Shown here in pieces: positions 1 through 58,763 of a stretch of DNA of 64,000 nucleotides. The position numbers and the translations under genes are program-made. The stretch comes from Thuidium tamariscinum (Eukaryota > Streptophyta > Bryopsida > Hypnales > Thuidiaceae). The notes beneath the pieces are model-generated. The model saw only the letters and a list, made by a program, of their open reading frames with translations, was not told the origin of the DNA and made no database searches. Within the stretch, counting starts at the first letter, position 1; each line of letters starts with the position of its first letter. The stretch spans positions 31,788,386 to 31,852,385 of the forward strand of contig OX344752.2 in NCBI GenBank assembly GCA_947034885.2, given 5' to 3'.

Positions 1-647
1 GAAACGTTTTCCTTCATACTGCATTGACCGACAACCATATCCACAACTCACGATCAGGTTAAAGAAAAGGTGATGGAGTGAACGGAACTTGCAAAAATTC
101 CCAGAGGATGAGAAAGATTAAAAGTACCGTCGAATGGTATCAGTTGCGCTTATAAACTTGTTGTAATTTTCGTAGACCAACATTTGCATATCACTGTCCA
201 GATTCTTTATTTCAGCTGCCATTTCCACATGACGTTGCAGCAAGCGATCCACCGGTGTCTTGCGCAGCTGTGAGCACGAGGGTAGGTCATTTTCGAGTGG
301 AAAAATGAACAATGAAATCGAAATGCGAGGGTCGAGACCCTTGAATAAGAGATTGCGACTTTTATCCACTATACAAATTCTTAGGACTTCTCCAATGCAT
401 TGCCAGCTCCTTAATCCAAAAGAAAACAATCTGTGCCCAAGAAAGCAGTCCTACGGCAACAAGAGGGATCGAGAGAACGTACAAGCGATGCAATGTAGTG
501 ATCGGAGTCAAAATTCGGGAGGTTGATGCCTTGCATAGTGTCGCGACGGACCAGACGCGACTCGGATTCCGGTGAGCCCGAGCCATAGAAGCTGCTCAGA
601 AGCTCCCGCAGCCTCTTGGATTTCTCGTCCTGCTCCTTAGTCGCCAT
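1..647 (-). CDS. VPS51: VPS51 (GARP/EARP vesicle-tethering subunit), 5' end only
   Basis: Partial gene that leaves the window at position 1. VPS51 links the VPS52/53/54 tethering complex that brings endosome-derived vesicles to the trans-Golgi network. Three exons are visible: 483-647, 128-267 and 1-18. Exon 1 starts at the ATG at 645-647 ([20 protein letters not shown]) and ends at a GTACGT donor. Exon 2 follows a CACAG acceptor in phase 0 and encodes [16 protein letters not shown], then [17 protein letters not shown]. Exon 3 completes the split Arg codon and begins MKENV. The N-terminal charged segment, the short variable linker and the heptad-like [16 protein letters not shown] block match plant VPS51 (UNHINGED) as I remember it. 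The coiled-coil body and C-terminal helical domain lie outside the window. The exon structure is seen directly; the function is from the family. Confidence 0.86.
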
Positions 648-1353
648 TCCTTCGTTTCTTACCTTGTGCCGTCACTTCACACCGACTGTAACACCACTAC
701 ACCATGGGATCCACCCTCGGGATCCTGGTTCGACACGGTGCGCCAGAACAACCTCTCTGTCTACTCCCGCGCAGAACTCAATCCTTCACAACACTGAAAA
801 ATGAAATCCACCAGCTCCTCAGAGTTACGCATAGTATACCAGAAAATGGCTTGCGATCCAGAAACCCTAGGAAAATTATCAATGATCCCCTTGGCCAGGT
901 CCCGATCTCAAGGCCTGCTTCGCAATCAGGGCTTGTTGGTCTTGCGTCTCTCTATCGGAGAAGCTCAGACGACGAGTCCACGACCGTCTCTGGATGATAA
1001 TCATCTATTAGTTGGATGTGGATCATCGTTGACGATCATCGTTGATGTTGCACTCACCACTCACCAGCGTATACTTTTGGACTTTTCCATATCGCCGATG
1101 TGGCGATCGACTGTAGCCTATTTTTATATTTTTAACTCTATCCGTCCCTATTGATTCATTTGAGTTATATAATTTACTATAATAAGAAAGATTTGGTGAA
1201 TTGTAAGTTCAAGCATTAATGGAATTGACAAAAAATTGCTTCATCATTTAAACTCAAATTTTTCTTAAATTTGTCACTAGCCTATAGATCAAATTTGATA
1301 TTTGGTGATAAATTGCCAAAAACAATTTGTGCCAACATTTACATGTTTTTAAT
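648..1353. promoter_or_regulatory. 5' flank and presumed promoter of VPS51
   Basis: Non-coding stretch upstream of the VPS51 start. About 650-1000 is clearly richer in GC than the AT-rich DNA beyond, as in the 5' flanks of the other genes here. Short open frames occur on the plus strand, but I see no protein-like composition or recognisable domain. No convincing TATA box was located. From about 1130 the sequence becomes AT-rich and repeat-like. Confidence 0.3.
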
Positions 1354-1361
1354 GTTTATTG

Positions 1362-1659
1362 CCCGGGGAGGACACTTCTTGTGTATTTGGGGGACCCACA
1401 TGCGGCGGTGGGGTATTTTTAGGGGGGCTATCAATTACTTGTAATCATTAATTGGCAACATTAAAAGAGCCCCTATTTTACCATAAAGCGGAAAAATCAG
1501 CCATATTATCATCCCTATTTTATTTTTAAAACACTTTGCTTTTCTAATGTCCCCTAATTTATATGTAAATTTTTTATAAATTTTACGTGACATTATTTAA
1601 ATGTACCCTAAATTCCGCCGCACGTAGGTTATTAAAAAACGGGAAGTGTCCTCCCCTAG
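1362..1659. mobile_element. 298-bp non-autonomous element, small relative of the 8.1-kb P-like transposon
   Basis: The left end begins CCCGGGGAGGACACTTC. The right end, read inverted, begins CTAGGGGAGGACACTTC. The element is flanked by a perfect 8-bp duplication GTTTATTG at 1354-1361 and 1660-1667. Inside the left end, the GC-rich block containing TGCGGCG and a TATTTTTNGGGGGGCTAT motif is nearly the same as that just inside the left end of the 47415-55559 element. The inverted partner CGCCGCACGT lies near the right end. It has no coding capacity. The shared ends and 8-bp duplication size indicate mobilisation by the same or a related transposase. Confidence 0.88.
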
Positions 1660-2599
1660 GTTTATTGTTAATGTCACATTTTCTAATATTACAACCCCTC
1701 TTCCCTTGATGATGAACAAGGACCTCATAAGCAAATCCAATCTAATATGCTTGACCATCTAAGAGTATTAGACATGATTGCATCTAAATAAACAATTGAT
1801 CATTACTCCTATTATTCAATTGTCTAACATTTTGTCGAAAATTGTTAAATTTCAATAAAGACTTGAGATTCTTTTTTTATGCATTTTTGAATTCCATATA
1901 AATAATCTATAAATTCTCAAAGTGTTGAAATATGTATACCTAAAAAGACCCTTAGGCTCTCATGAATGAGGTTGTATAGTCAAGTTCAATGATCTTATGA
2001 ATTTTTGGATCTTGACACTTTTCTTTGAGATTAGAATAATTTTTGGAGGCTTCTAAATTCAAACAAATGAATGAATTTTGAATTGCAAACTATGTTGGAA
2101 CTTCACCAGAGTCTACTTCATCATCATTACAAATGTATACATATGTGATTGAAAATCATACAATGACTTTACATTTAAGAACATTGCAAAGAGTTTTTGG
2201 AAGTTTCTGGATTTTTTTGCTAAATCTATGTATTTGGGAAAAAAAATTACAAGCTAACTTGACCTATTGTACAATAAAAAAAATACAAGTAGTATAGCAT
2301 AAGTATCTCATTAGTAATAGTAAAAACTCATTTAAAACATGGCCAATTGGATGCAAGTTGTAATTTCAATCAACAAACAATGTCAACTAATGTTTCTTTC
2401 AGCAAAATTTCACTCAAAAGTAAAAAAACTTTACTGTGGAAAATATTTGGCAAATTACTCTTGCTTTTTAGTAGATGAAATTACTACTTTGCTACCAAAT
2501 CAATGGAATTGCTTTATTTTGTATGCATGTACCGTCTATTCATTAGATGTATTTTTTGCCAATTAGAAGACTACAAGTCCCAATTGTCAAAATGCTAAA

Positions 2600-3090
2600 G
2601 GAACTTTGCCACATATGCAATCTTATGCGGCACAAAGAGTGCCAAGTCAAATAATATTTTTTATTTTATTTTTTTATTTAAAATAAAAACACATTTTATT
2701 ATTTTATTATTATTTTTTATTCTAATTGTTCACAGCATTGGGAATGGGCTTGAAACAGTCTTCTAATCCCTCAAAAAACATCTAATGTTGGATGAATACC
2801 TAAAACATTAGAAGAAATTTAGCCTCTCTAAAAGACTGTAAGTTCTTAGTAGTGAGGAACTCTCTGCAACACTGTAGCACTATTGTGGCAACGTTGCTGA
2901 TGTGGTCAGGCAAAGACCACGTCATTAAAGAAAATTTAATTAAAGAATTTTTTTATATTTAAAATTTAAAAAAAAAATTAATAGTAAATTAGACAACAAC
3001 CTCACTACTATGGGAACAAAATTCAGAACAGGCTTGAAACAGTCTCTTAGAAAGGCCAATTCTCCTCTAATGTTTCTTTCATAGAGTACA
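2600..3090. repeat. Diverged dispersed repeat (also near 20630-20960)
   Basis: Both regions contain an ATTGGGAATG-like segment, a block about avoiding-loss style short words such as TTGCTGATGTGGTC or TTGCTACATTAGC, a long poly-A/T stretch, and then GAAACAGTCTCTTAGA followed by GGCCAA and a CTCCT-TTAAT run. The order is the same but divergence is high. There is no coding capacity, so this is an old dispersed element. A related poly-A/T and CACATCAG-type segment also occurs near 24590-24740 inside the CACTA element. Confidence 0.45.
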
Positions 3091-3704
3091 AATTTCATCC
3101 ATTTTCATGGATGAAAATAGATTTTTCCTTTTAATGATTATCACTATTGGCACTACCTAAAATAAATATTAAAAAAATTGATAGTAGGACAAGATGGGAG
3201 ATAGTATAATGGAAATATCCAAATTGTTGTCTTGAGATTGTTGTATAAATTTGAATTTTGTATGTATATATTTGTTGTCATGATCAAATACTCTACTACA
3301 AATTCCAACACAATTTGCTAGTTTAAAATCATTCTATTTTTTAATACACTAAGGCACACACTAGGGAATCCTATAACGGAGGCAATCCATTCTTGATCAC
3401 CTTCCCATTTTTAGTAGGGTAGAGTGGTCTAATTGCAACCAGTTCTTACACATATTAATTAGGAATGGTTCTTACGTTTGATAAGGTGGCACATGGCAGT
3501 AAAGCACTTTGAATTGGTGTGTCAATTTTTCTAGCATAGTTAGGAAGCACTCTTGGTTTTACAACTTACTCTTGGTTGGAAATAGGATGACCTATAATAC
3601 TAGTATGGGATGAATAGAATCTTCACCTAAAAAATTCATGGTAATTTTGTTTTGGGAAATAAAATTTTGAAAAAATAGGGAATTTTTTTTAAATGTATTT
3701 CAGT

Positions 3705-4290
3705 ATATATAGGAGAGGGCTCTAAAATCACCCAGGCTTTTGCAATCATCCAGTAGGAGGCTGTGAAATGGAACTTGATTGTAGGTAAATGAATTTCCAA
3801 TTACATTGGAGCATGATAAGAATTTGTTTTTTCCTTCTTCAACAGATGGTTTCAAAGTCACAATGGCTTCATTCTCAACTAAGTGAATAAAATAAGACTT
3901 GATTGTTAAACTCCCTTTTTACAAGTGTTACAAAAATCTGAAATAATGATTAATTCAAGCATTTAGGAAGGAACGCAGTTAGAAACCACCTTGATTACTT
4001 TTTCCATGTTGCAATGCTAGTTCTTGAACAAAGCTAGATTTATTTCCAAATTGTGCATGTATGAGTTTGTGAGGCCTACTGATCACAAATAGGGCCTTAT
4101 GCCAAACTATGTTTGAAAATTCATAACTAATTTAGTAATGCTTCAAAAAATATGAAATAACTTGTGTTAGATTCCTAAAACATTTTTCTTTGACAAAAAA
4201 ATAAGTTCAAAATATTTTCATCAAAAGAAATACATGGAAAAGAGAGATCAGCTCTTAAATGAGCGGTTTCTGAGCCTCCTCCCTTAGAGA
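3705..4290 (+). repeat. Dispersed repeat copy 1 (partner at 37685-38300)
   Basis: Begins with a TATAGGAGAGGGCTCTAAAA motif followed by GGCTTTTGCAA and CATCCAGTAGG. It ends near TTCTGAGCCTCCTCCCTTA. The same landmarks occur in the same order and orientation at 37685-38300. The copies have diverged by substitutions and small indels. No coding frame is shared, so it is probably an old non-coding transposon family. Confidence 0.65.
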
Positions 4291-4620
4291 ATTTTTTCTC
4301 TTCAACATATCCATACTTTAGGTATGCTCAATTACTTATTTGATCAGAAATGGGTTGCCTCCCCTAGTTTATGGATATCTCTATTGCAATTTGATTGCAA
4401 AAAAAATTCATAAGATTATTAATACCATCTCTACATTTTAGGCAAGAATCTATAGAATCCAGTTTATGAAAGGGATCACAATTAGGTGCAAAGATCTTTA
4501 CAGTAACTACAGTTGGATACTAAAACCTTACAAACAACCTATTTAAGCCTTTCACTTTTTCTTGCAATGTGCAATATAATTGGTATATATCGGTAAGCAT
4601 AATTATCATTGCATCCCTAT

Positions 4621-5265
4621 ACAATTCCAATCATGTATACCAAATTTTAGTTTCAAAAAAACAAAATTTCATTTTTGGTGAATTTTTTTAGTCAATTTTC
4701 ATGTTTTTACATAATATTTTATTGAAAACAACTCTTGATGGATTTTTTTTAATCAATTGCGTAGCTATCTAGGGAACATCTATATGCACATCTTTTGTAT
4801 TTAAAAACACCCCACTATGTAACAAAGATATGACCTACGAAGAAATCAATGTGAGGTGTCATATGACCAAACTTTGTAAAATAGATATTTTATATCTTAA
4901 CTAGATTTTGGCAAAGTAATTGTACTATCATGTTGAAATGTAGAAAATTAGTGATAGTGTGAGGGTTAAATAGCAAAATCTAGTTAAAAGATAGAAATAT
5001 TTAGTTTACAAAGGTTGGTCATAAAATGCCTTACATTGAATTCTTTATTGGCCATATCTTTGTTACTTAAGGGATTGTTTCTTAATATGAAAGATGTGCA
5101 TATGGATGTTTCCTATGTATCCATTCAATCAAATCAAAAAAATTTGTCACCATTTTTTTTCAATAAAATATTATGTAAAACCTCAAAGATTGACTTAAGA
5201 AATTCACCAAAAATTATATTTTACTTTTTCTAAATTGAAATTTGGTATGCTTGAATTGGGATTAA
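4621..5265. repeat. Foldback element with two arms of about 300 bp
   Basis: The left arm (about 4621-4920) is the imperfect reverse complement of the right arm (about 4965-5265). Landmarks pair from the outside in: TACCAAATTT with AAATTTGGTA, TTTTTGGTGAATT with AATTCACCAAAAA, TTACATAATATTTTATTG with CAATAAAATATTATGTAA, and GTAACAAAGATATG with CATATCTTTGTTAC. The centre lies near 4940. The open frame at 5015-5233 is just arm sequence. This is a MITE-like or foldback transposon. The target duplication was not resolved. Confidence 0.75.
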
Positions 5266-5646
5266 GTAAAAATTGATTGCTATTTATTCAAGACAAAGAA
5301 AGCCAATTTTATTCTATATTATGTACAAATCTTTGAATGGATCCAAAAGGCAATTTGTAAACTTTTAGGCTCTGACTATACACCTCAATGTAGTTGAATG
5401 ACTTATATTTTAACATCTAGAATTGAATTCATTGTCTTCTTGTTTTATACTCTATACAAAATGGTATGATACAAGATGGTTTTGTTCCTACATGGTAAAT
5501 TTCTTCACTATACTTGATCTACCACATGTAATGCTACATGTCAACTTTTCATTGGGATCTCACCATATGACATGCCTTGAAATCTTAGTTTTCTTTCCAA
5601 TTTTTAGGAATAACTTCATAATTTGCATCCTATAGAATGAACATCT
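5266..5646. other. AT-rich spacer, nothing recognised
   Basis: AT-rich sequence between the foldback and the first TTAA element. The short open frame at 5423-5635 has no recognisable motif and an AT-driven composition. No gene or RNA is seen. Confidence 0.5.
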
Positions 5647-6571
5647 TTAACCCCTAAAGGACCATTGTCCCCTCGGGGGACAATTTGGAGTTCGGGCAGG
5701 TTCCGTAGACCTCAATTTTTAATGAATCTTTTTGAAACTTTTTCATAAGATAGGAAAACTGATTAGCTTCATGGGAATGTAATTTTTATTTCAATGGGTG
5801 ACCGGGAGCAAAAGTTATACCACAAAAAGCCCAAATTTTCATTCGGCGGGCAGAAATTTTTTTTTGCAAAAAGTCAAAATTTAATTTTTTAATTTTTTCT
5901 TCTAAAATAATATATTTTTGCCTACATGTGAAGCTTTGATTCACTCTATTTGGACTTATAATGAGAAAGTTATGGACAATCTTGTTTTTCGGGCAATCTA
6001 AACAATTTCTTGAAAAAATAACTTATAGGATTCATTTTTGAATGCAATTTTCACAATTTTTCAAAAAAAATTGTTGGACAAGGTTATGTTTACTTTCTAG
6101 AACAATCTCACCATTGGGATTATTGTATTTCAATCCCATCTTAGAGTTATTAACCATTTAGTTTTTCTTTCAATCTTGGACCTACATCTACTTAACAATT
6201 TAAAAAAGAATGAAAATCAAGTGTTTTTTGTGTGAAATTTTTTTCCTAGACTCTCAACTCAATTTCTTAACACAAAAAATTATAAATTCAAAGTCTATAG
6301 TGCAATTTCTTAATACAAATTCCAGTCAAAGTCATCTGAAATTGCAAACCACAGTTCAAAAAAACTTGTATTTCCAACTTTGAATGCTCATATCTTCCAA
6401 TCTGTACGGTCAAACTTCATGAAATTTTTACCACTTGATCTCAATCAAGTTAAGTACAAGATCCTACGGTTAGATTCTTAAAAAAAAATTGTTTTCTTGG
6501 ATGAATGCAACAGAAATGGCAGTTTTGAGAGGTTTTTGACAGAAAAAAGGCCTTGGTCCTTTAGGGGTTAA
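5647..6571. mobile_element. 925-bp non-autonomous element with TTAA ends, family A
   Basis: Starts TTAACCCCTAAAGGACCA. Its right end, read inverted, is TTAACCCCTAAAGGACCA followed by AGGCC, so at least 18 bp are inverted. TTAA at each border is the expected duplicated target of piggyBac- or Kolobok-type transposases. Just inside the left end is a short perfect hairpin, TTGTCCCC-TCG-GGGGACAA, at about 5667-5685. The interior is AT-rich with no coding frame. Assignment to piggyBac versus Kolobok is not possible without a transposase. Confidence 0.75.
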
Positions 6572-6911
6572 ATCAAATTCACATTCTACTTTCAATATTA
6601 CACTAGTTAGCTACAAAAAAAAATGCATACAAATGTAGTATTAAAGAATGTGTGACAAGGGTGCTTAAACTCCTTCATGACCCTTATGACACAATAGTTG
6701 CTTTAACATCACTTTGACATGTAGCTCCATTGTGTTCAACTCCTAAAGAACTTTCATCTTATTAATCACAATGGATTGATTCAAAGCTTCTCATATACAT
6801 ACAATTCTAAAGAATCAATTTCAATTTTTTATTTTTTCAAAAATTGAATTTTAAAGAAGTTTTTTGAGCTTCCCAAGCTACCTAAAAATCACATATTATG
6901 CAATAATTGTT
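6572..6911. other. AT-rich spacer between transposons
   Basis: No coding frame, no inverted ends and no RNA gene seen. It separates two TTAA-ended elements. Confidence 0.5.
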
Positions 6912-8067
6912 GAACCCCTAAAGCCTTGAACTATATTTTTTTTTTGGCAACATAGCGATTTTAGGTAGCTCACTATGAATGGAATTTGTATTTATTTTTA
7001 TTTGAAATTTTTACATAACATGTGCTTGAGGAGTAGCTTTAAGGCCCAACAATTTTCATAACTTTTGACTAAATGGTTAAAAAGTTATAGCATGATATGT
7101 TGTTTCCTTTGAATGGTGGGTAGCCATGGCAACAAAAAAAACTTCTTTAAAAATTGATTTTTGAAGAAATAAAAATTTGAAATTGGTTTATTAAATTTAT
7201 ATCTATGTAGAAAGCTTTGAATCATTCCTTTTCGATAAATAAGTAAAAAGTTATGAGGAATTTTAGTTTGGGGTAGTTTGTAGGTAGCTATAGAATCTCT
7301 ACTCTACAAAAAAAATTGAAATTCTTTATTTAATTCAATTATTAATATTTCTGAAAAAAATGAAAACATTAGTTGAATATTTTTTATCACAATATTTTTA
7401 ACCATTGGGATTGGCATTTTTTATTTTTATAAATTCCAATGGTTAAAATATTGTAATAAAAAATTTGAACCACTGGGATTGGTTACACAATTTAGTATTT
7501 TCAAGCATTTTCTACTTCTTTCTACTTACTATTTCTTTTCCTATATGTTGTACAATTCTAAATGATTTGAAATTTTTTGAGCGTATAGCCAACTTGAATT
7601 GTAAAATGAATTTAAAGAGTAACCATCATTTTAAGTATTTTTTCATACAAATGTGACCTTGTGAAGTGCAGCTGTCTGAATTTTTGTAGGGATAAAAAAA
7701 AGGATTTTTTTTACTTCATATGTTAATATCTTGCAATCTACGAGGTAAAAATTTCTGAAATTTTTCCTACATCTTTTCAGACCACCTAACTCCAAGATCC
7801 CATGGTTAAGTATGTCAAAAAATATTTCTTTTCAAAAATTTGCACTTGTACTAGAATTCAGTTTTGGAGTGATTTTGGTGGAAACATAGTCAATAACCTT
7901 TAGGGCTTTATTGTGTAGTAAAAAGTTATGAAAATTCTTGGGCCTTCAAGTTACTCCTTGGACGTATGTGTGAAAATTTCAAATAAAAAAATAAAAATTT
8001 CATTTATAATGAAGTGCCCAAAATTGCTATATTGCCAAAATAACACAACTCCATTTTTATGGGTTAA
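6912..8067. mobile_element. TTAA-type element, family B, with an inverted partial second copy
   Basis: The left part matches the copies at 57228-58763 and 61919-62736: AACCCCTAAAG, GGCAACATAG, a conserved TTTAAGGCCCAAC block and GGTTAAAAAGTTA. The family's right end appears at about 7893-7915 as ACATAGTCAATAACCTTTAGGG. From there to 8067 the sequence is the reverse complement of the first 150 bp or so of the element (GGGCCTTCAAG mirrors the GGCCCAAC block), finishing GGGTTAA. The result is either a long-inverted-end version or a second truncated copy joined tail to tail. Open frames inside are AT-rich and not protein-like. The left TTAA is mutated to TTGA. Confidence 0.6.
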
Positions 8068-8801
8068 CCCTTAAAGGACAAACCTATCACCACTGGTTTA
8101 AAGCCTCCTAACCTATTACTTAATTCGTTACCATTTTCAAAGCAGATATATCTGAAATTTTTTATTTTTATTTTTCAGAGATGAAAGAACATGTCTTCTA
8201 AACTCCACAGAAAATTTAGATTTTTTTGAGGAAAATTGATTTTTATGTGGATTTTTGAAGAAAAAGTGAAGAGAAAATCACATTAAAATAAAAAAGTCAT
8301 CCCAAAAAATCTGAAAATTTCACCAAGTTTGTTCATTATAGTGACAAACATCATGGTGGAAACTCAATTTCCGTGTACTTCTATATATAGGATGCAACGG
8401 AGATTAAAATTGCAGCCAGAGTTCAAAATGCAATAAAATAATCAATTTTACAAAAAAATTCCAAAATTTCAATTGGAGTAGAAACTAGAGTGGAGGACCT
8501 TCATTTCATTAGTTGGGCTCAAACTCAAAAAATGTCAGTTTCAAGGAGAAATTTCAGATTCAGTCAATTTCTCAAAATACACTAAAATGGCAAATTTTGC
8601 TATCCATTTTCTCTAAATACTTCTCAACTACATGAAAACAAATAGTAGTTAGACTAAAAACTCAATTGAAGACTCTTCACAACTCAACGTGAAAGGTCAT
8701 TAAAATAAAAGTGAATGAAAAAAATACTGTTCAGGTCTTCTTCTGCCCCTGCGAAGAAATCCGAACGTCAAAAAATGGCGCCGGCGTCGCTTAGGGGTTA
8801 A
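8064..8801. mobile_element. 738-bp element with TTAA ends, family C
   Basis: Left end TTAACCCTTAAAGGAC at 8064; inverted right end TTAACCCCTAAGCGAC at 8801. The first 16 bases match apart from three positions. It shares only the terminal motif with family A, and the interiors differ. Its left TTAA coincides with the right TTAA of the preceding element inside the palindrome GGGTTAACCC, so the two elements abut at a single target site. No coding frame. Confidence 0.6.
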
Positions 8802-41251: not shown

Positions 41252-41362
41252 CAGAGTGGGCATCCGAGTGTTTCGCTGTATCTAATTTGGTTGTGAGAAT
41301 TTCACTACGAGCTACATTTTGACTAGTGATTTTGGACTTGCGAATTTTTGTATAGTTCAGGC

Positions 41363-42928
41363 ATGGCGACCACTGCAGTAGCTTTGGGCAGCACAGCCTC
41401 GCTTGCGATGGCCAATTTACAGATTTCTTCTTCTTTCCAGAAGCCCACGGAGTCTATGAGCTTCGGTTCCTCTTTGTTTCGGCCACGAGCTAACAGCTCG
41501 TTTTTCGGGGAGAGAGTGGCATGTCCTCCCTCGGCCGGCGTCGACAATGGCGCTCGCGTGCGATGCTTCATGCGGATGAGGCAGCGTGGTGCCTCGGGAC
41601 GCATCATCTTCACGCCGTTCGGGCCCATGTTCACTCCCGATTCCGGTCGTCGAGGGAGCAATGGTGGGAGGGACGGGGAAAAGCGGAATCCGTCTCAGGA
41701 GGAGAGGGTTCGAGGTCGAAGGGAGATGATGCAAAGAGCCCGCGACAGGGCCTTGCTGAATGAGTTGGAGCGGAGGTTGAGAGCCGAGGGCGCAACTTCG
41801 CAAGCAGACATTGAGGAGCTGATGCAGCAGCTGGAGAAGAAACTTCGGTCAGAGCAGCAGCCCAACGAAAACCCTACAGCAGAGCAGCAGGTGCAGCAGG
41901 AGCAGAAAGAGCAGGAGCAGGAGCAGCAGCCTGAGCACTCAACCATGTATGACTTTTTGAACGCATGGCTGAAGGAGCAGGATCAAGCTATGCGGGAGGA
42001 ACGGGAGAGGCTTAAAAAACTTTGGGAGAAATCCACCACGACACCGCAGCAGTCAAACCGAGGTTCCAAGCCTGTGGAGGAGCGCGATGAAGTGTACAGT
42101 CCAGAGGAGCTTCAGCGAGCTGAAGAAGAAGAAGCAAAGAGAACTCCCGAGGTGGACATCAAGAACGCCCCGAGTGATGGCACGGTGGTGTACTTGAAGA
42201 ACGAGTCGAACGGGGCTGAATTATACTTGATCGGCACGAGCCACATCTCCAAGCAGAGCGTCGCGGAAGTGCGCGACGTCATTCAAAAAGTGCAACCCGA
42301 TTACGTGATGGTGGAGCTCGACAGGAAGCGCTACAACTCCATAGTGAATCGAGGCAGCGAGAGCCCCTTTGATTTCGTTTACCAGATGGTACAGACCCTT
42401 GCGAATGGCAACATCGGTTCAGTGGGGAAGCTCATGGGCTTGGGGCTGTCCGGATTCTATCGCTTGTTAGCCACGCGGGGTTTACAGCCCGGGCAAGAGA
42501 TTCGCGTGGCGATCGAGGAGGGGAAGAAAGTCGGGGCGAAGATCGTGCTCGGCGATCAGGACATCGACATCACCATGAAGCACTTCGGAGAGCAGATGTC
42601 CATGAGCGACGCGCTGCAGTTCTTCGCTCGACCGATGCCCAGCGACCTCGCCCAGAAGATGAGCGACGCCTACAACGCTGGTGGTTCCGACCCTGCACAA
42701 ATGTTTGAGCAGCTGCGAGACCGGAAAATCGTGCGCGAGCTTAACGCGGTGATGGAGCGCGAAGCGCCGGCGTTCAGCAGAGTGCTGTTGCGCGAGCGCA
42801 ACGAAGCCATGACGAAAGCGCTGCGCAATCTGAGCGGCAAGGTGGTGGCCGTGGTTGGACTGGCGCACTTGGACGGCATCGAGAATCTATGGCGCGAGGC
42901 CAACGAGCAGCACCTCAATGAGAGTTGA
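41363..42928 (+). CDS. TraB/PrgY (Tiki-like) domain protein with probable plastid transit peptide
   Basis: Intronless, 521 residues, starting at the ATG at 41363-41365; the frame is open five codons further up but has no ATG there. Residues 1-70 are Ser/Ala/Arg-rich with few acidic residues, like a chloroplast transit peptide. Residues 105-265 form a charged linker with a Gln/Glu tract (about 162-191) and predicted coiled-coil character. The TraB domain covers about 272-513: GTSH at 291-294, VELDRKR at 317-322, GDQDI at 397-401, RERN at 477-480 and GLAH at 499-502. The two G-x-x-H motifs and the glutamate of VELD are the residues proposed to bind metal in the TraB/Tiki family. Plant members are organelle proteins of poorly defined biochemistry; plastid location is inferred. 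Codon use is GC-rich, the frame is intact, and it looks like a functional gene. Confidence 0.9.
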   Translation: MATTAVALGSTASLAMANLQISSSFQKPTESMSFGSSLFRPRANSSFFGERVACPPSAGVDNGARVRCFMRMRQRGASGRIIFTPFGPMFTPDSGRRGSNGGRDGEKRNPSQEERVRGRREMMQRARDRALLNELERRLRAEGATSQADIEELMQQLEKKLRSEQQPNENPTAEQQVQQEQKEQEQEQQPEHSTMYDFLNAWLKEQDQAMREERERLKKLWEKSTTTPQQSNRGSKPVEERDEVYSPEELQRAEEEEAKRTPEVDIKNAPSDGTVVYLKNESNGAELYLIGTSHISKQSVAEVRDVIQKVQPDYVMVELDRKRYNSIVNRGSESPFDFVYQMVQTLANGNIGSVGKLMGLGLSGFYRLLATRGLQPGQEIRVAIEEGKKVGAKIVLGDQDIDITMKHFGEQMSMSDALQFFARPMPSDLAQKMSDAYNAGGSDPAQMFEQLRDRKIVRELNAVMEREAPAFSRVLLRERNEAMTKALRNLSGKVVAVVGLAHLDGIENLWREANEQHLNES

Positions 42929-47406: not shown

Positions 47407-47414
47407 AAGGTCGT
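47407..47414. repeat. Left 8-bp target duplication of the P-like transposon
   Basis: AAGGTCGT, repeated exactly at 55560-55567 directly outside the other end. Confidence 0.85.
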
Positions 47415-48340
47415 CCCGGGTAGATCACTCTTTGTATATTTCATACCCCCCCGTGCGGCGAGGGGGTATTTTTTGGGGGGCTATTTACCTCAAAAGCCCC
47501 AATAAATGGTCCCCTATAATTATATAATTTGAAAATATATCCTATATTATAACATCCTATATTACTTATATTATGTAGGTGAGAGCTTTTTTTTCTAGGG
47601 TATTTTCTTTATAAGGAAAAAAAGTGAATTGGGGAGAAAGTTAAAAGGAAGAAGGTAAGAGAGAGGACCAAGAAAATTTCCAAAAAAAGTCAAGATATTT
47701 CCTTGGCTCAATATTCTTTTCCATTGTCACACCTTTTTTTGGTATACACAATTTTGTCAAGTAAACCAAAACTAATGGCAATGTTACCACTTACAAGACA
47801 CAAAAATCCAAGAACTGAATGTACAAGAACTGCAATGCATGAAAACACATTTTGACAATGCAAGAGAAGCAAACAATACATTGACAAAAATTGCAATGCA
47901 TTGAAAAAAATGAGAATGTAATCCATGTGTTCAAAACAAGAATGAATCCACTAAAATGAACAAAAGGCACTGTCTTTCACATGCCATAGAAGAATGGTGC
48001 ACAAATACTATTCAATGTCATGAAAAAAAAGAAAACCTAAAACAAAAACATGTGCTCAGAATAGGTCATTCACAAATGCAAATGCTCAAAAAATGTTGAG
48101 ATACACTATAGCCTCATCAAAAATTGTTCATGCATTCATATGCATTGAATTGCCCCAAAACTAGCCTCCTATCTCAGTAATGGTGTGATCCAAACACTAG
48201 AATTGCCCGTGCTACCAACCAACACGGGAAACTACAAACTCTGTTGACCACCCTGATTTGAGGCACCTCTGTAGCTCAATGAGCTCTTCTATGCCCAACT
48301 CAGCAAATGAAGAAGAACTCAGGTGAGGTGCCATCTCCAC

Positions 48341-48675
48341 CTACAAAACCCAAGACCGAGAAAACAAAGCCAAATTCTCGTCCACGCTTTGAATCTTCAC
48401 GGGCTTCTGATGAGGTGCTCCGTGAACATGGTGTTGGGCCAGCTTGCAAGCTGCAAACTCTGGAGTCTTTACCACCGCATCTCGAATTCTGTGGATTACA
48501 CCTGCACATCGTAAGAACACATCTAGTGTTGCCACTCGTACATCTGTGATTTGGAGGGCTTCCCAACCACGTGCAAGCTGAAATCTTAGCCCCGACCATA
48601 GCACAAGACACTCTAGCGCTTGGAGTGTAGTTTCAAGGGTGTCTTTCATCTGCTTTGCCATTTCAAACCTAAAGC
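48341..48675 (-). pseudogene. Gene-like exon inside the transposon, possibly captured host sequence
   Basis: After a TTCACAG acceptor-like site, the minus-strand frame reads EMAKQMKDTLETTLQALE, LVLWSGLRFQLARGWEALQ and DVFLRCAGVIHRIRDAVVKT: helical, charged and clearly protein-like. No stop interrupts it for about 110 codons. I do not recognise the family. It lies downstream of a promoter-like, GC-rich stretch at 49340-49700. It may be a captured piece of a host gene, or a second gene of the element. Splice phase to the candidate first exon at 49341-49394 does not fit simply, so the gene model is unresolved. Confidence 0.4.
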
Positions 48676-49340
48676 CTGTGAATGGCAGCACGAAAGTTAG
48701 GTTAGCATATACGAGACTTCAAAACACAATTCTGGACAACTGGGCAAAAGGCAGTAGGTAGCAAGTCTTTTCTATCATTTCAATGATAAACAAAAACAGC
48801 ATCGGCATTCTTCTAGCACCTGATCTCTAGCAACCCTAAGAAAATTTGTAGTCAGGATACACATTCGACAATGCAGGTTGTAAAGTTCTTCAACCTATTG
48901 AAATGGACTGAAAAAGCAAAGTTCCAAAATGAAAAAACCAGCCTACTAGCACTGAGGTTTAGGTCGTCTCCAAATCAATCCCACAAGATAAACAAAAGCA
49001 CATACAAACCAATTCATCAAATCTTACTTGGGCAAGAAGATGGGAAACGAGGCACCGAAGGAGCTTATTCGCCAACGCAGCCACAAGCAGCGTCTACAGA
49101 ATACCTGCTCGGCCACTACATATGCAAGAAAAAAGAATCAGAAATTACGGAATTCCTGCATCCTACTTCAACAAGAACAATAGCATTGTCAAATTCGAAA
49201 GTGATCACACGCCCTGCTGCAGATCTACGCACCCAAAACGGAGAACGAATACAATAAAATCCAAAAGTACAGCAACCTACAGCAACGCGCACATAGAAAG
49301 CAAATGACGTACCAAAGTGTGATTCCAAGCATACATGTAC

Positions 49341-49700
49341 GTGAGACGATCCCAGGCGGCCCAAATTTGTGCGCGCAACCTGCAGCTGCGACATCAATGC
49401 GACACAATTCTCAATTTGCGAGTTCCGAGTCCGCGGAATGCATAGAAGGTTTAGGGTTTGGTCAACACGAAACGAACACAAGAATGGAAACCCACAACGA
49501 GAAAGAGTACGCCAAAACTCAAATTTTCAAACCTGGTACGCGGTCGAGGCGCTCCAACGAAGAATCGCGATGTCACCGAGCAAGCGAGGTGCACCACTGC
49601 GCCTTCCGCTGATACACAATTCACACAGATCCAGGCAGCCGAGCGTGATGGCGGACTGACGCGCAAAGAAAAATGAAGCCGAGCTCGATCACTTGGCGCC
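49341..49700 (-). promoter_or_regulatory. Promoter and leader-like segment inside the transposon
   Basis: GC-rich minus-strand sequence with an AAACCCTAAACC telo-box at about 49447-49459, common in promoters and leaders of plant housekeeping genes. Next is a possible short first coding exon (ATG at 49392-49394, MSQLQVARTNLGRLGSSH) ending at a GTACAT donor at 49340. It supports the idea that a host gene's 5' end sits inside the element. Inferred from motif and composition only. Confidence 0.35.
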
Positions 49701-50387
49701 CATTTGAAGGAAACAAGAGAACTTCAATCTCTTGCAAAATCCTAAGCTCACAGGGTCATTTCGAATTCAGCCAACGCGAGGTGACAAGGCAGTGATTTGG
49801 AGACGACAACCTACAAAACTTTTCGGATGAGAATCTCACAGAATCCTCATAATATCACTTCCAACAGCCATTCCAGATATAAAAAACGCTCACTTTTCAA
49901 ATCAGAATCTTACCAACAGTTTTCGGGATTCACCTAATGGATTTGTGACATTATCCTATTACAGCAACTCATATCAACAACGAGGGAATTCATTAAGCAA
50001 GTAATAAGACTGAAAACCAAGTGAGGATTTGCATGAATTACAGTGACAAAAAAAAATCTTTAGTGCGCTAAGGAGGTCTCCATCGTCCAATCCATTCGAA
50101 GTCAAACCAGAACTATTCCCTCTGTTGTGATCCTTCGAGGAGAATTTGACATTTGAGCTTAGTGCACTCACTTTACAGATGTGTATACCAAGGCCACGTT
50201 GCACTCTAGAACATTTGATTCAAAGAAATACTCCAGTAGTTTGAAATTTGCATAAGCAATGAGAGAAGCATCCAATCAAGAATTAGTACATAATTCTTGG
50301 GAAAAAAATTTCAAGAGCAAAACACAACTTCTCAAGAGCAAAACAGAAATTTTCAAGAGCAAACCTTCACGTCCTTTGCAGTTGGAT

Positions 50388-53300
50388 TCAAGCCTTTTGA
50401 CTGTTGACAAAGTCATTCAACTCTCGAGAATCATTGCTGTCCAGAGAATAAACTTCATTGACAGGGTTGTATGTCATGGTAACTATACAAATGATGCAGT
50501 CTATATCAATCCACTTGCTGTCCGTGTGGTCATATTTGAATTTGTCTCTCCCAACATGTTTACGGTAGTATTGCAGGAGGACTTCAATGTGTGGATTCTG
50601 CGGCTTGGATTTCCCATTTTCTTCCATTCTTGCTAGAAGGTCCACAAGCTGTCTCAGTATGCCAAATTGTCGTCCATTGCGACACCTCATTGCTTGAACC
50701 CTACCCAACCACCATGCACCCTCATCTACGGCATTCAAAACATTAGTAGCCCTGCCATCCCTACTAGCACTAGTTGCACGTCCCCTTTTCCTCTTAGCAG
50801 CAGATCTTACCGTTGAAGATAAGCGCGTCGTGCTCCTCTGAATGAAGTGTACGCCACAGTCTGATCCAAGACACAGCAGACCTGTACCAGATGACAAGCC
50901 AGCTCGGACACAATTGTCGTGGTTGTTGAATTTAATGCTTTGCTTGATTCTAGCAAGGCGTTCTTTGGAGAGGAAGCTATTCCCATTCAACTCAGAAACA
51001 ATTGTGGATTTATACACACAATGGCCCTCTGTTTGCACAGTTGGTTCAATTTTAACATTGGATCCGCTCTCACTGGAAGTTACTTGTGCCTCAGTGCAAT
51101 TTAGCAAATCTGTGATTGCATCACGAGTTTCTTCTTGTACGACTGCCAAATGATTTTCAACATCATCTAGACTAGCATCTTCAACAGTATCCCTCATTTG
51201 GGGAGTACTTGAGCCGCTTAAGTCATTTGGTCCTTGCACTTGCAGTCTGTCATGCAATACTTCGGAGTCTCCATCCTCTCCAGACACAGCTCTTCCGCTT
51301 GGGCTGTAAGCAAAACTCTTTGGATCAGATCTCTCTACGATCCAGGGCTTATCATACCAAATCCGCTTTTTTGCTTGGCATTGAATAGATGGTGCCATAT
51401 TGAGGACTCGCATCATCTACTGCGCTTCCTTCAGTCCCTCCTGTAACGCCCCTACTACCGAATCATTATCTGGAATCAAGTTGTAGTCACCCAAATTGCA
51501 TTGCACCTCATCCGGTTGCAGCGGGTGAAGGGCTTCCCAGACATTGTCCATCTTGTTGTGTTGCTTTTTAAAAGCCAAACCATTTTGTCCATACTCAATT
51601 GCTGACATGAGGTTCAAGGTATTTGCCGTATTCAGCAACTCATGGAAATCATAAGCACGCTCATGGCCGTTCATGCCACCAATTCGTGAGAAAAAAATTT
51701 CGCATGAATCACTCCCAGTCAAATGGAGAGGAACCGCTAAATCTGGAAACCTGTCTCTGAAATGGCAGATCAAGAGAACAACAAAATGGCACGAGATTTG
51801 GATATCAAGAAAACATTGCAAACTTACAAAATGTTTGGCCTCCACCAGTTTCTGAGAGTTCCCCAGTACACCATGATCTCCATGGTGCAGCCAAAGTCTC
51901 CAAATTCGAAAAAAGAAAGACACCTTGCCACACAAGACAATTCTAGAACGAAGGTCCAATTGAGCTGAACAGAAAATATCAATGTAGTCAGAGCATATCT
52001 GCAAATAAAACTCTGTTCCAAGCGTTCTCTCCCGATGTGAGTAATCCACTTCTCGCATGCGGGCCAAACAGGAACGAACTTGAGTTTGACACAACCTTTG
52101 TGCTGCTGCCCAGTTCTGGCGGTCTTTTCTTTCAACGTCTTCCATTTTTAAGCCATGCTCCTTGGCTGTGAATTGCTGAAACACCTGCTCAATGTGATTG
52201 TGCAAACACAAATCTCCTCCTAGTTGTAAAGTTCTAGCAGTTGAGAGCAAAGGGTTAATTAATTTTTTCCCGTTGTGAATATAATCTTGATCATGCAGCC
52301 CACTAGCATTCCCGTGTTCATCTAAGGACGCACTGAACATCCACCCATTCCACCCTAAGTCAAGACGGATCCCAGCGTCACTCTTGTAATCTTGTAGCAT
52401 TAACTACCTCCTACGGGAATCTCCATCACTTGCATGACCAATGATTGGCCCAACCGCATTCAAACAATCCATTGTCCAATGCTTATCAATCGTTCCCCAC
52501 TGATGTCGAACCCAAGCTGAGTTGAAACAATTGCATGTACAGCAAGCAACAAGTACAAGACGTGGCAATTTATCATGAAGAGGATTGACAACAATTATGC
52601 GCGCAAAACTGCCAGCTCTGTTCTTTGAAAAAGAATCTAACAATCGCTGGTATCCTTCCTCTCTACTCCCGACAATTGGCCTGAAACCCAAAACACAAAC
52701 ATGGTTCTCAAATGGACCACAGAACCCAGCTAACGTATCTGACCTCGGTTCCCATGCAACTCTACCCTTTACTTTAGTTTCGTCTTCAGCTAGTATTACA
52801 GGCACAGGACCTGCAATGTTGTGTGCGACCTTTGCAGCACGGTAAATCTCTGCCACTGATGCAAAAATTTCGGAGTGCTCACCAGCTATAAACTGCACTC
52901 CTTTGCTAACATCGCGTTTTACGTCACTATAGCTAGCGCCTCCAAAATTCAAAGAAAATAAATCAACCATGCGACGACCACCATAAACCTTCATTACTTG
53001 CCCTAGACATTTTGTATTCTTGCTGTAGCGGTTCCCTGTGGAAGCTCGGTTTATATTTTGTGCAACATCCCGAAGGAAATCCCACAAAGTAGGCTTCCCA
53101 CCGAAAGCCCCTAATCTATGAGCACTGATGATACTATGGCAGAATTTCATGACATTATTTGAATTCGAAGCTTCCCTAGCCAATTCACGCAGACTTGGCC
53201 ACTTAACTTTCAGTTGAACAATCCTAGCACGATCTGAAAGGTGCATCAATTTCTCAGCTTTCAATTTCCTACGCATTTCACGACCATACTGTGCTAGTTC

Positions 53301-54902
53301 TGAAACGGTCAAGTAACCGAGTCTCCTTCCTGCCCCGGTGCTACGAGTCCCCCTTTTCTCTACATTGTGTTCTTCCCTTACAACCCTCTTTCGAAAATCA
53401 TTTTGCAATGGAATTTCGGAGCACATGGAGGATGCCAAATTAGGAAAACCAGACCCGGAATTATCCACCCTAAAATAAGACTTGTGCCTAAATGTTCCAT
53501 CGATCTCGACTGCTTCACCATTCTTAGTGAAGCTTGCGCTAACATGTGGTTCCGGATACCAAACCCCTCCCAAATGTGGATCATGAAGAATTTCATGGAC
53601 AAAATAAGAACCCCCCCCCCCATAAATGGTAGTCGGACCCCTGAACCCCCAACACAAGAATGCCAAACTTGAATTTCTATCCAAGGAAGAAGATTCACCC
53701 AGATGAGTTTGATCTTGAACAGAATCTGCCTTCCACCATCTCCCAAGACTTGGCTGGTTCGAGTGGACACTAACTGCAAATGAGAAAGTAGGCTGCCCTC
53801 TTCTTCCGCTTAGAAGTGCACTGTTCTGCTTCGGTGGTTGATTTGCTTCTTCCACAGCTTGTAAATGCTTTGATGATGCTAAGTGATTTCGCAAATTTGA
53901 CTCCAAATTCTTCTTCAGCGGGCACAAACAAAGCAAATCTCGACAATAAAAGCATCGCACCTTCACCCAAAAACTCTTTGGAGCAGAGTCCTTGAACGAC
54001 TGCAAAACACTGAAAGGCTTTCGTGATTCCCCTGCACTGCCATTCACTTCTTCCATAATGGCAAGTCCTTCGTCTATGAGTTTCTTGTGCATCTCCGGAG
54101 TCAATGGAATGATCTTCCCCTTCGAAGCAGCAGACTGAGGGTGGTCAACGTACTGAACGTCGTTGTGAGCACACCAGTTCTTCACGTGGTTTGTACTCAA
54201 GAGGTGCTTGGATTTGAAATTGTTGAACAAATTCTGAATGCTTGTTTTGTCGTGTTTGCCACTGTCCCCACCAATCTCCTTCTGGCACTCAACACAAAAG
54301 ATCTTCACGACTCCATTTCCGTTCAAATCAGAGGTCTTCAGCAACCATCGATTGTCTTCCTGTGATGAGCATCTCAAATCCCTCTTCATTTTCTCTGACT
54401 GCTCAAGGTATCGCTCCCATACCTCTGTGGAAATCAACATAGAATGCAGCTGGTGGTCACTGGAATTTGTAACAAGGGATGATCCAGTAATTCTAGAGCT
54501 TCCAACAGGATCTGTGAGTTGCACATCCGGTTCTCCATCTCCACCACAAGAAACCCCATCTGCAGCTCTTGTCGTGAGACCAACATTTCCATCCTCCACA
54601 CGCCTACGTTTGCAGGCTTCTGGATCTTCAATACACACTGGCAATACATAAACATCCGAAACCACATCGTTCAATGCCTCCATCTTCAGCTTTAAGCGGC
54701 ACCGGTCTTCGTAGTCCCAGAACTCGAAAGGCCAATCCATTGCACCTTTTTCCTCCAAACGCACCCTTAGCGAGGCATACGTTTCATCTTGGAGTACCTT
54801 CACCTTACTGAAAAAGATAAGGGTCGCATTATCAGTCTCCATCGTCCAAATCTTGACTTGATTTGCCATAGTTGCTAACTGCGAACCGTATCCGAAGCCC
54901 AA
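50388..54902 (-). pseudogene. P-element-like transposase, 1504 codons, interrupted by two in-frame TAG codons
   Basis: A single frame from the ATG at 54900-54902 to a stop at 50388-50390, with no introns or frameshifts. The only breaks are TAG codons at 52404-52406 (codon 833) and 51417-51419 (codon 1162). Residues 1-90 look like a compact globular domain. There are two zinc-finger-like modules: CVEC at 203-206 with H233/H239, and CFYC at 317-320 with H340/H346 (BED/C2H2 type). Then comes a basic segment (500-560) and an RNase H-like core: VILAEDETKVKGRVAWEP with an AGFCG turn (703-729), GHASDGDSRR (822-831), DQDYIHNGKKL (from about 871) and GSDSCEIFFSRIGG (E at about 1068). This order of DE, SDG, D-x(4)H-x-GKK and an E-x-FFS-x-IGG block resembles P-element/THAP9 transposases. 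The C-terminal part (from 1163) ends in a WWLGRVQAMR domain of unknown role. A run of G codons (G428-431) comes from a C homopolymer at about 53610-53621. Confidence 0.82.
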
Positions 54903-55250
54903 TGCTCTGAATAAGAAATCAAGAAGAAATCAGGAAGAAACCCTAAATTGCACAGTCCAAATGAAACCCTAAACACCTAGCAGAACTGCTTGGAATGATA
55001 ATGAATTCCTGAAATTTTGCTCACGATGTTGAACAAGTAAAGCTCCATGCACTCCTAAACGCTGGAACCCTAACATTCACCTCCGGCAAACAATGCAAAC
55101 CTCCAAAATTGAGAGTAACGTAGGGAGACTCAAGTCGCAACACAGGGAGACTCACAGATCGCAACGGCAATATTGTGGACCTAACTCCGTCGAAGCTTGA
55201 ACGGGATCTCTCATCTCTGTCTGTTTCTTCTATTTTCATCCATCGAAGCA
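54903..55250 (-). promoter_or_regulatory. 5' flank of the transposase gene with telo-box-like motifs
   Basis: AACCCTAA motifs occur at about 54937, 54965 and 55066, in the sense direction of the plus strand and so inverted relative to the gene. The stretch is richer in GC than the element's outer 300 bp. The open frame at 55021-55239 has no recognisable content. It is the likely promoter and leader of the transposase. Confidence 0.4.
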
Positions 55251-55559
55251 GTAGTCTAGTATAGCATAGTTGTACTCATTATTTTGTACTAATTATTTTG
55301 TACTCTACAGCCAACTCTAATACAACTGACCCTAATAAAAGCAATTTTGAGGATCCTAATCTTTAGTCTTTAAATTATATGTAAAAAATTTTAATACTTT
55401 ACATTTTTTAGCTACCTATTTTACTTATAATGCATCTTTCACTTTGAAAGTGCCCTATTTTATTTGTAAGTCCCTTATAAATTTTACCTTCAAACAATAA
55501 AACCCACGCTATATTATGCCGCACGTGGTTTTTAAAACGCGGGAAGTGATCTACCCTAG

Positions 55560-55567
55560 AAGGTCGT
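55560..55567. repeat. Right 8-bp target duplication of the P-like transposon
   Basis: AAGGTCGT, identical to 47407-47414. Confidence 0.85.
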
Positions 55568-55628: not shown

Positions 55629-56383
55629 GGGTGATTGCAAGAAACACTTGTCCTATTTTTTGTCCCCTTGACCTTCAATAGGTAGTTTTTTGCTCATAAC
55701 TTTTGCATCGTTTGCCCTATCAACTTGAAATTTGGAATGAAGGTGCAAACAAAAGTTTTATATGTTTTGTAATTTTTTCAATTTTTTAAAAATTAGTTTA
55801 TTATTTTTAAACTGCCCCCGATTGGCTATCTACCTTGGCCATTTTGGGGGTTTTGGGTCCTATTTTTGACTCCAAAATTCGAATTTGAAGCCACAAATTG
55901 GACAAGTTGGAGTTCTACTAACATTTCAAGGATTGACAGTGAGTTTTTATAAAAATAGTAAAATGTCTATTGTCCACATGGGGTCAAAGTGACCTTCTTT
56001 TGCACAAACTCTACGAAGAGGGAAAAACTTTTTTAGAGGAATTTTTTCTTGCAATGTGTGCACAATTTTGTTTAGAAAAATGGTTTTTTTAAAAATAATT
56101 TTTTGATTTTTTTTAATTATTAAAAATAAAAAGATCCACAAACCCTTTTACTACTATTTTTTGCTCCTTGTGGCCTGTGAAGTACTTGTAGTAGTTCATA
56201 GTACTACATAATATTGCATAGTACTACACTAACAGACCAAATTTGCAAGTGCTCGAAATTATCGGTTGAGATTTACAGGCGCGTGTCAGACGCGTTATAT
56301 TGTCAGGATCGCGAAGAACTACCAGTACTATGCCAAAAAACAGCATTTTGAGCCAAAAACGTGAAGTGTTTGTTGCAGTCACC
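55629..56383. mobile_element. 755-bp element with GGTGATTGCAAGAAA-type ends
   Basis: Left end GGGTGATTGCAAGAAACACTT; inverted right end GGTGACTGCAACAAACACTT. A 5-bp duplication TAGTG flanks it at 55624-55628 and 56384-56388. Size, ends and an internal ACTTGAAATTTGGAATGAAGG block relate it to the copy at 29909-30632. No coding frame. Confidence 0.75.
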
Positions 56384-57227: not shown

Positions 57228-58763
57228 TTTTTGTAACAAAGTTTATGCATTTTTTGACAACATTTTAGGCAACTCATTACAAATGAAGTTTTTATTATTT
57301 TTCTTTAAAACTTCCACAAAATATTTCTCCAAAGAGCAGATTTAAGGCCCAAGAGTTTTTATAACTTTTGACTACATGGTTAAAAAGTTAAGGCATGATA
57401 TGTTGTTTTCTTTACTTGGCGGGCAACTTGGAAGCTAAAATAACTTCAAAAATTATTATTTTTAAAATAAAAATTTCAAATTGGTTTTTTTAATTTATAT
57501 ATATGTGGAAAGCTTTTAATCATTCTATTTTAATCAATGAGTCAAAGTCATGAGGAGTTTTAGTTTGGGTAGTTTGTGGATAGTTGTAGAATGTCTATTT
57601 CCAAAAAAAATTGAATTTTTTTGATTAATTCAATTTTTGGTATATTTTTGAAAAAAATTGAAACATTAGGTGAAGATTATTTATTACAGTATTACAACTA
57701 TTGGAATTGGCATTTTTCATTTTCATAAATAAATTGTTAACAACTTAGTATTTTGAATCATTTTCTACTTCTTCCTATTTTTTTTTTTTGTATATCAATG
57801 TTGTGCAATTCCAAATGATTTGAAATTTTTTGATTATATAGCCAACTTGCATTGAAGAATGAATTCAAATAATAACCACCATGATTTTGAACATTTTCTA
57901 TACAAACAAATGTGACCTTGTGAAGTGCAGTTGTTCGGGTTTTTGTATAGATAAAAAAAAGGATTTTTGTCAATTCAAATGTTAACATAGATGTTAATAT
58001 CTTGCAATCTATATGGTAGAAATATTTGAATTTTTTTGCACATCTTTTCAAATTACCTTAGTACAAGATTCTACGGTGACATTTGTCAAGGAAAAAAAAA
58101 TTAATTTTGCACCTCGGGGAGATCACTTAGAGTAACCTTTAGACACCACGTGTGTTAAAAATTTTGGACCCCCTATTTTTTTTCTAAAATTTAAATTAAA
58201 AAAAAAATATGAGAGTATTTTCTTACATTGAAAGTTTATAACTTGAATTATTGATATTTTTATATATTGATTATAATTAGTTACAAATTTTTGAAGTAAA
58301 AAAATACACTGTAAAGCTAGAAATAACTTTCACACCCCTATTTTATATAAGAAAAAATTGTCTAAAAAATGAACAAAAAATTGCTAAAAATAGTTTTCAT
58401 TGAAATTTTATTTTTCTTGAATATTGATGCCATGGTCATTTAAATGCATTCTCTATAAATGTTTGAGTTGAAAAACATGCTAGTATAGTTCATTTTTCAA
58501 CCTACTCTAGAAATCATTTCATATGTTATTTGATTTCAAAATTTTTGGCAATAGAAACTTATAGTCATTATTAAGCACATCTCAAAATTATAGGTTGAAA
58601 TCATAGTTTATAAAAAAAGTATATAGGGGTGCAAAAAATCACTTTAACACACGTAGTTTGTTTTTGATACACTAAGTGATCTCCCTGAGTTTTGCACTTG
58701 TATTAAGTATTGCAATTTTGAAGCATTTTTGGTGAAGACATAGTAAAAAACCTTTAGGATTAA
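57228..58763. mobile_element. TTAA-type element, family B, interrupted by a younger insertion
   Basis: Matches 61919-62736 and 6912-7915 throughout: TTTAAGGCCCAA, GACTACATGGTTAAAAAGTTA, CCAAATGATTTGAAATTTTTTG, ATGTGACCTTGTGAAGTGCAG and CATAGT-AAAAACCTTTAGG. The right border TTAA is at 58760-58763; the left border is degraded. The 577-bp P-like relative at 58113-58689 splits it. Confidence 0.7.
58113..58689. mobile_element. 577-bp non-autonomous element with P-like ends, nested
   Basis: Left end CTCGGGGAGATCACTTAG; inverted right end CTCAGGGAGATCACTTAG. A perfect 8-bp duplication TTTTGCAC lies at 58105-58112 and 58690-58697. A second inverted block ACGTGTGTTAAA lies about 40 bases in from each end. 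The terminal pattern C-Y-x-R-GGG-K-AG-R-x-CACT is shared with the 8145-bp and 298-bp elements. The interior is AT-rich with no coding frame. Confidence 0.88.

Follow-up and report, generated by a model that had tools for sequence, protein, structure and literature searches.

The window analysed here is a 64,000-nucleotide stretch of the genome of the moss Thuidium tamariscinum (assembly GCA_947034885.2, contig OX344752.2, forward-strand positions 31,788,386 to 31,852,385), and it contains an 8,145-bp element with the features of a P-element-like transposon (Table 1). The element carries a single-exon transposase gene on the minus strand, which starts at an ATG at 54869 and reaches its stop at 50388. 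Its 15-bp terminal inverted repeats (TIRs) agree at 13 of 15 positions when the right one is reversed, and an exact 8-bp target-site duplication (TSD) lies on both flanks; the matching repeats and the exact duplication had both been claimed in a preliminary description of this DNA, and both are present.

Table 1 Features of the 8,145-bp element and of two small elements in the window
Feature	Position	Strand	Remarks
Left TSD	47407..47414	+	AAGGTCGT
Whole element	47415..55559	minus (transposase gene)	8145 bp; borders shared with sibling copies
Left TIR	47415..47429	+	CCCGGGTAGATCACT; same border in sibling copies
Region downstream of gene	47430..50387	not assigned	about 3 kb; no frame longer than 128 aa among the listed open reading frames
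Transposase gene	50388..54869	minus	single exon, 1493 codons + stop, with two TAG
C-terminal barrel, predicted BAH-like	50424..50888	minus	holds WWLGRVQ
Premature TAG	51417..51419	minus
P-element-like core	51585..53099	minus	prediction: a helical DNA-binding part, then an RNase H domain interrupted by a helical insertion
Predicted third catalytic acid, E1077	51699..51710	minus	in D1074-S-C-E1077, Asp three residues before; E 25/25, D1074 24/25
[C/D](2)H motif, D882-Y-I-H885	52275..52286	minus	D 27/28, C 1/28; H 28/28
Premature TAG	52404..52406	minus
Predicted second catalytic Asp, D835 or D837	52419..52427	minus	SDGDSRRR; kept 29/30 and 30/30
Predicted first catalytic Asp, D716	52782..52784	minus	EDET motif; kept 30/30
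Cysteine cluster preceding core	53421..53654	minus	positions 485 and 500 lost in window copy
Second C2H2 finger pattern	53865..53954	minus	C-x2-C-x19-H-x5-H; Cys/His kept in 12-14/14 relatives with letters
First C2H2 (BED-like) finger pattern	54186..54296	minus	C-x2-C-x26-H-x5-H; Cys/His kept in 12-13/13 relatives with letters
Right TIR	55545..55559	minus	CTAGGGTAGATCACT
Right TSD	55560..55567	+	AAGGTCGT
298-bp non-autonomous derivative	1354..1667	not assigned	element at 1362-1659; TSD GTTTATTG
577-bp non-autonomous element	58105..58697	not assigned	element at 58113-58689; related ends; TSD TTTTGCAC

Identical 8-mers lying 200-20,000 bp apart within the window form 46,429 pairs, and as a chance test we ordered these by the inverted-repeat match just inside them. 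The 47407/55560 pair was among the five best, one of which scored 14/15 and four, including this one, 13/15. Two of the others, 58105/58690 and 1354/1660 (one at 14/15 and one at 13/15), have the same type of end, CYYGGGKRGNNCACT or a near form of it, and bound small elements, while the two remaining pairs, both at 13/15, are without this end type.

The genome searched was the 363-Mb assembly (19 contigs), and all match counts from it are lower bounds. The protein query gave at least 69 matches (54 of 260 candidates scored) and the first 500 bp of the element at least 42 (40 of 604 candidates scored). Long stretches were fetched for 20 of the 69 protein matches and upstream pieces for nine, which together with the window copy made 21 large copies. 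Exact 8-bp TSDs, all different, were found at 12 of the 21: the window copy, L009, L011, L013, L014, L015, L017, L021, L022, L023, L025 and L026, with that of L023 counted after a one-base shift of its right border. Three copies (L010, L020 and L027) had both ends and no TSD, and in six (L012, L016, L018, L019, L024 and L028) the second end was not convincing. When duplications of 6-10 bp were allowed, ten of these TSD pairs were recovered, the longest being 8 bp. The preliminary description had proposed a search for copies with the same ends, and the borders at 47415 and 55559 indeed recur in siblings such as L009, which aligned over the full element (bases 1 to 8145) with 96.8% identity and has a TSD of its own. 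The long conserved frame might also be explained by a domesticated host gene that happens to be flanked by repeats; this explanation, to which we give virtually no weight, is refuted by the number of genome matches, by TSDs that differ between copies and by the stops in the window copy. An empty site was sought with a query joining the two flanks. It hit either side of the locus itself and a repeat that is dispersed in the genome and lies in the right flank; none of the 42 rows (40 of 2,253 candidates scored) crossed the junction. This repeat is short, occupies about 70 bp at 55629-55699 and occurs in many places in the genome. The total length of L013 and L015 is only about 7.0 kb.

Structure prediction, run on the protein beyond its N-terminal third, gave a model whose residues 202-706 matched the P transposase structure PDB 6p5a very strongly in the fold comparison, with 412 of 442 residues aligned. 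The predicted RNase H domain is of P type and is split by a helical insertion domain, an arrangement for which a fold prediction had been suggested beforehand, and the length and fold of the insertion agree with those of P transposase; a long helix at model residues 133-167 is a coiled-coil candidate. The fold matches came from VIA-align, which re-aligns Foldseek's own top 1000, so that the absence of a fold from this list means little. The protein blocks quoted earlier for the core are all there. The D, D, E triad and the [C/D](2)H signature of the P superfamily are present, the residues being equated with those of P transposase by order, motif and spacing rather than by superposition of coordinates.

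Sequence searches of Pfam and PDB were unproductive for the window protein, and weak Pfam matches in this set of proteins (thioredoxin, clusterin, HIGH_NTase and the like) were taken as chance. Searching with the core gave at least 29 relatives, and a profile of distant relatives gave at least 32 proteins, 28 of them new (the best 8,000 candidates scored in each case), so that the set comprised 58 proteins including the window protein. The only relative above the Pfam cut-off for the P-type helix-turn-helix (HTH) domain was P0051, and P0015 showed a weak match to the P GTP-binding insertion domain. The Pfam P RNase H model had no match in the moss genome, which is uninformative because it was equally blank in all 14 control genomes.

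The P fold match, the 8-bp TSDs (12 of 21 large and 16 of 20 small copies), the short TIRs and the acidic residues with [C/D](2)H all support the P-superfamily interpretation made at the outset, and we put the probability that the element is a cut-and-paste DNA transposon of P type at roughly 87%. The KDZ, Merlin and Novosib families also have 8-bp TSDs. A KDZ (Zisupton-type), Merlin or Novosib-like element has this length alone in its favour, and we consider it very improbable: the P fold match was far ahead of these types, no such Pfam model was among the matches listed, and Pfam KDZ had no match in 30 proteins, nor among the matches listed for 38. Zisupton and Kyakuja have been reported in green algae, according to the part of PMC8226300 available. 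A hAT element seems just as improbable; hAT transposons are common in plants and share the 8-bp TSD and short TIRs (the available text of PMC10741241), whereas they differ from the moss element in fold and signature.

The window copy itself is a decayed member of the family: two stops interrupt its frame, and two cysteines that are otherwise invariant are missing. The 1504-codon frame first described is not open, since two TAG codons interrupt it between the ATG and the stop. Neither site is a stop in any of the 29 relatives (five are gapped at the second, 51417-51419), and the cysteines at 485 and 500 are kept in all 25 relatives with letters there. The copy is therefore no longer able to make a full transposase, and its ends look usable if acted on by intact relatives; "nearly intact" is apt for the structure of the element but not for its gene. 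Two of the 20 fetched siblings, L025 (1513 aa) and L026 (1519 aa), have frames open from the first methionine. An in-frame intron at about 51757-51830 was considered and dropped, because the alignment shows conserved coding residues in that stretch. The ratio of nonsynonymous to synonymous divergence (dN/dS) was computed for ten pairs. It was 0.36-0.57 in the five closest pairs, with a dS of 0.016-0.09, and L009 compared with the window gene gave 0.51 at a dS of 0.045. In four more diverged pairs it was 0.09-0.20 (dS was saturated, at 2.2, in one of these), and for the tenth no dS estimate was obtainable. Such a pattern is usual for a family that is maintained by transposition and whose individual copies decay once inserted.

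At its N-terminus the protein departs from classical P elements. THAP had no match at E ≤1 in the window protein or in the 29 relatives, many of which are truncated at this end, and two C2H2 finger patterns stand in place of the N-terminal THAP domain of classical P elements. BED-like fingers had been claimed here; both C2H2 patterns are conserved, but the first has no Pfam BED match. Because the P catalytic core is present but the THAP feature is absent, we place the element within the P type and outside the classical P elements, possibly in a sister superfamily. Besides the 58 proteins, the tree took in five further copies from the moss genome, 63 rows in all. The window copy, those five copies and P0015 from the liverwort Calypogeia fissa fall together in a 27-row clade (support 100/100); a 26-row clade (93/88) includes P0036 from the brittle star Amphiura filiformis; and a divergent clade of eight rows includes P0051. 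We call the first two plant-type and animal on the strength of the few rows with identified hosts. The separation of these three clades would suit a superfamily of its own, sister to P, which would share the catalytic core, have its own DNA-binding and chromatin domains and differ more in name than in mechanism. The lack of a detectable THAP domain, the family-wide EDET, SDGDSRRR and CG-H-C blocks, the C-terminal BAH-like domain, the failure of Pfam to recognise the window protein and, for what a model equally blank in the controls is worth, the empty P RNase H search point the same way. Against this stand the strength of the match to the P fold, the relative above the P HTH cut-off, and a TSD length and [C/D](2)H motif identical to those of P, and we regard a separate superfamily as conceivable though the less favoured placement.

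The unusual C-terminal domain with WWLGRVQ, noticed in the preliminary description, is predicted to form a BAH-like barrel. BAH-containing proteins made up 45 of the 50 listed rows for this barrel; BAH is named in 10 titles, and the other proteins, as well as the matched part of each, we take to be BAH. Pfam detects BAH in the relative P0026, and the predicted barrel resembles the BAH-domain proteins EBS, SHL, AIPP3 and ZMET2. The domain looks like a chromatin reader and, judging from the model, might bind histones; BAH domains are known for binding methylated histone tails. A chromo-barrel or Tudor-type reader would be the other candidate; we think it unlikely in view of these rows and of the match in P0026. 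The last 60 residues of P0027 and P0028 form a PTM/DIR17-like Tudor domain above the Pfam cut-off.

We have good confidence that the P-type element works like the P element. Its transposase would consist, in order, of two C2H2 finger patterns, the long helix with a helical DNA-binding part, the RNase H domain (D716, D835/D837 and E1077) interrupted by the helical insertion, and the BAH-like barrel. If it acts as the Drosophila enzyme does, it would pair both element ends, excise the element and join it to new DNA at two positions separated by 8 bp, and repair would leave the 8-bp duplications. Enzymes of the P superfamily cut the donor with a 17-nt stagger. The transposase is the presumed catalyst; its insertion domain may use GTP, the fingers may recognise the element ends, and the BAH-like domain could guide the choice or tolerance of insertion sites.

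At its two ends, the 298-bp element, a miniature inverted-repeat transposable element (MITE), is 72-76% identical to the two ends of the large element. As a query it gave at least 41 genome matches (40 of 1,567 candidates scored), 38 of the 41 at full length and, the window's own aside, at 96-97% identity. Of 20 fetched small copies, 16 have exact 8-bp TSDs, three have a one-base mismatch and one, L040, has none; the mean pairwise identity among them and the window copy is 97.8%. The 298-bp family is a recent burst. The 577-bp element has inverted termini of its own of about 80 bp, 73% alike, and blastn against the large element gave no match at E 1e-3.

The Drosophila P element and its transposase (PDB 6p5a, 6pe2) share with the moss element the predicted core fold, the acidic triad, [C/D](2)H, the insertion-domain length, the 8-bp TSD and the existence of non-autonomous derivatives. 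They differ in a TIR of 31 bp instead of 15 bp, in the THAP domain where the moss protein has two C2H2 patterns, and in a C-terminal acidic domain where it is BAH-like; the moss element is also set apart by its 8.1-kb length, its protein of about 1,500 aa and its land-plant host. Zebrafish THAP9/P-like elements are similar in their short TIR (13 bp), 8-bp TSD and internally deleted copies (available part of PMC7776569), and differ in being THAP-bearing and animal. Anopheles P subfamilies and P-MITEs, as far as the accessible text of PMC1562414 goes, have 8-bp TSDs in full and MITE copies alike, the MITEs keeping the ends, whereas their TIRs are 27-31 bp; the same text finds THAP in all P proteins known at that time.

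For plants, the consulted parts of PMC9033089 list six superfamilies of DNA transposons with terminal repeats and those of PMC10741241 seven, and P is not named among them. In the open-access PMC literature, as far as its text was available (Repbase, Dfam and most subscription papers lie outside it), we found no account of P-type elements from land plants, nor, in the same literature, of a P-type transposase that carries a BAH domain. P is reportedly entered for plants in an older classification table, with green algae as the probable source. A P-type lineage in which some copies keep open frames and small derivatives have recently multiplied would add a superfamily to land plants and would offer a moss system for studying P-type transposition. 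With a histone-reader-like domain fused to the transposase, chromatin-guided cut-and-paste insertion would become directly testable. Moss MITEs with 8-bp duplications could also be misfiled as hAT. We tentatively propose, as an idea that we would not yet favour over others, a deep THAP-less sister lineage of P in bryophytes and marine animals, with a built-in BAH-like (sometimes also Tudor) histone reader guiding insertion, which would be a major source in mosses of short non-autonomous elements, the kind that would be annotated as hAT or as unclassified.

Elsewhere in the window, a frame at 14224-14739 matches a PGAP1-like domain (E 2.1e-10) and probably represents one exon of a gene of the host. 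A neighbouring TraB-family gene at 41330-42928, which among named species comes closest to mosses and so points to a moss host distinct from both named mosses, is 66% identical to its counterpart in Ceratodon purpureus, 50% in Physcomitrium patens, 41% in Calypogeia fissa and, over half its length, 48% in Chara braunii, with identities of up to 91% among the 17 proteins listed.
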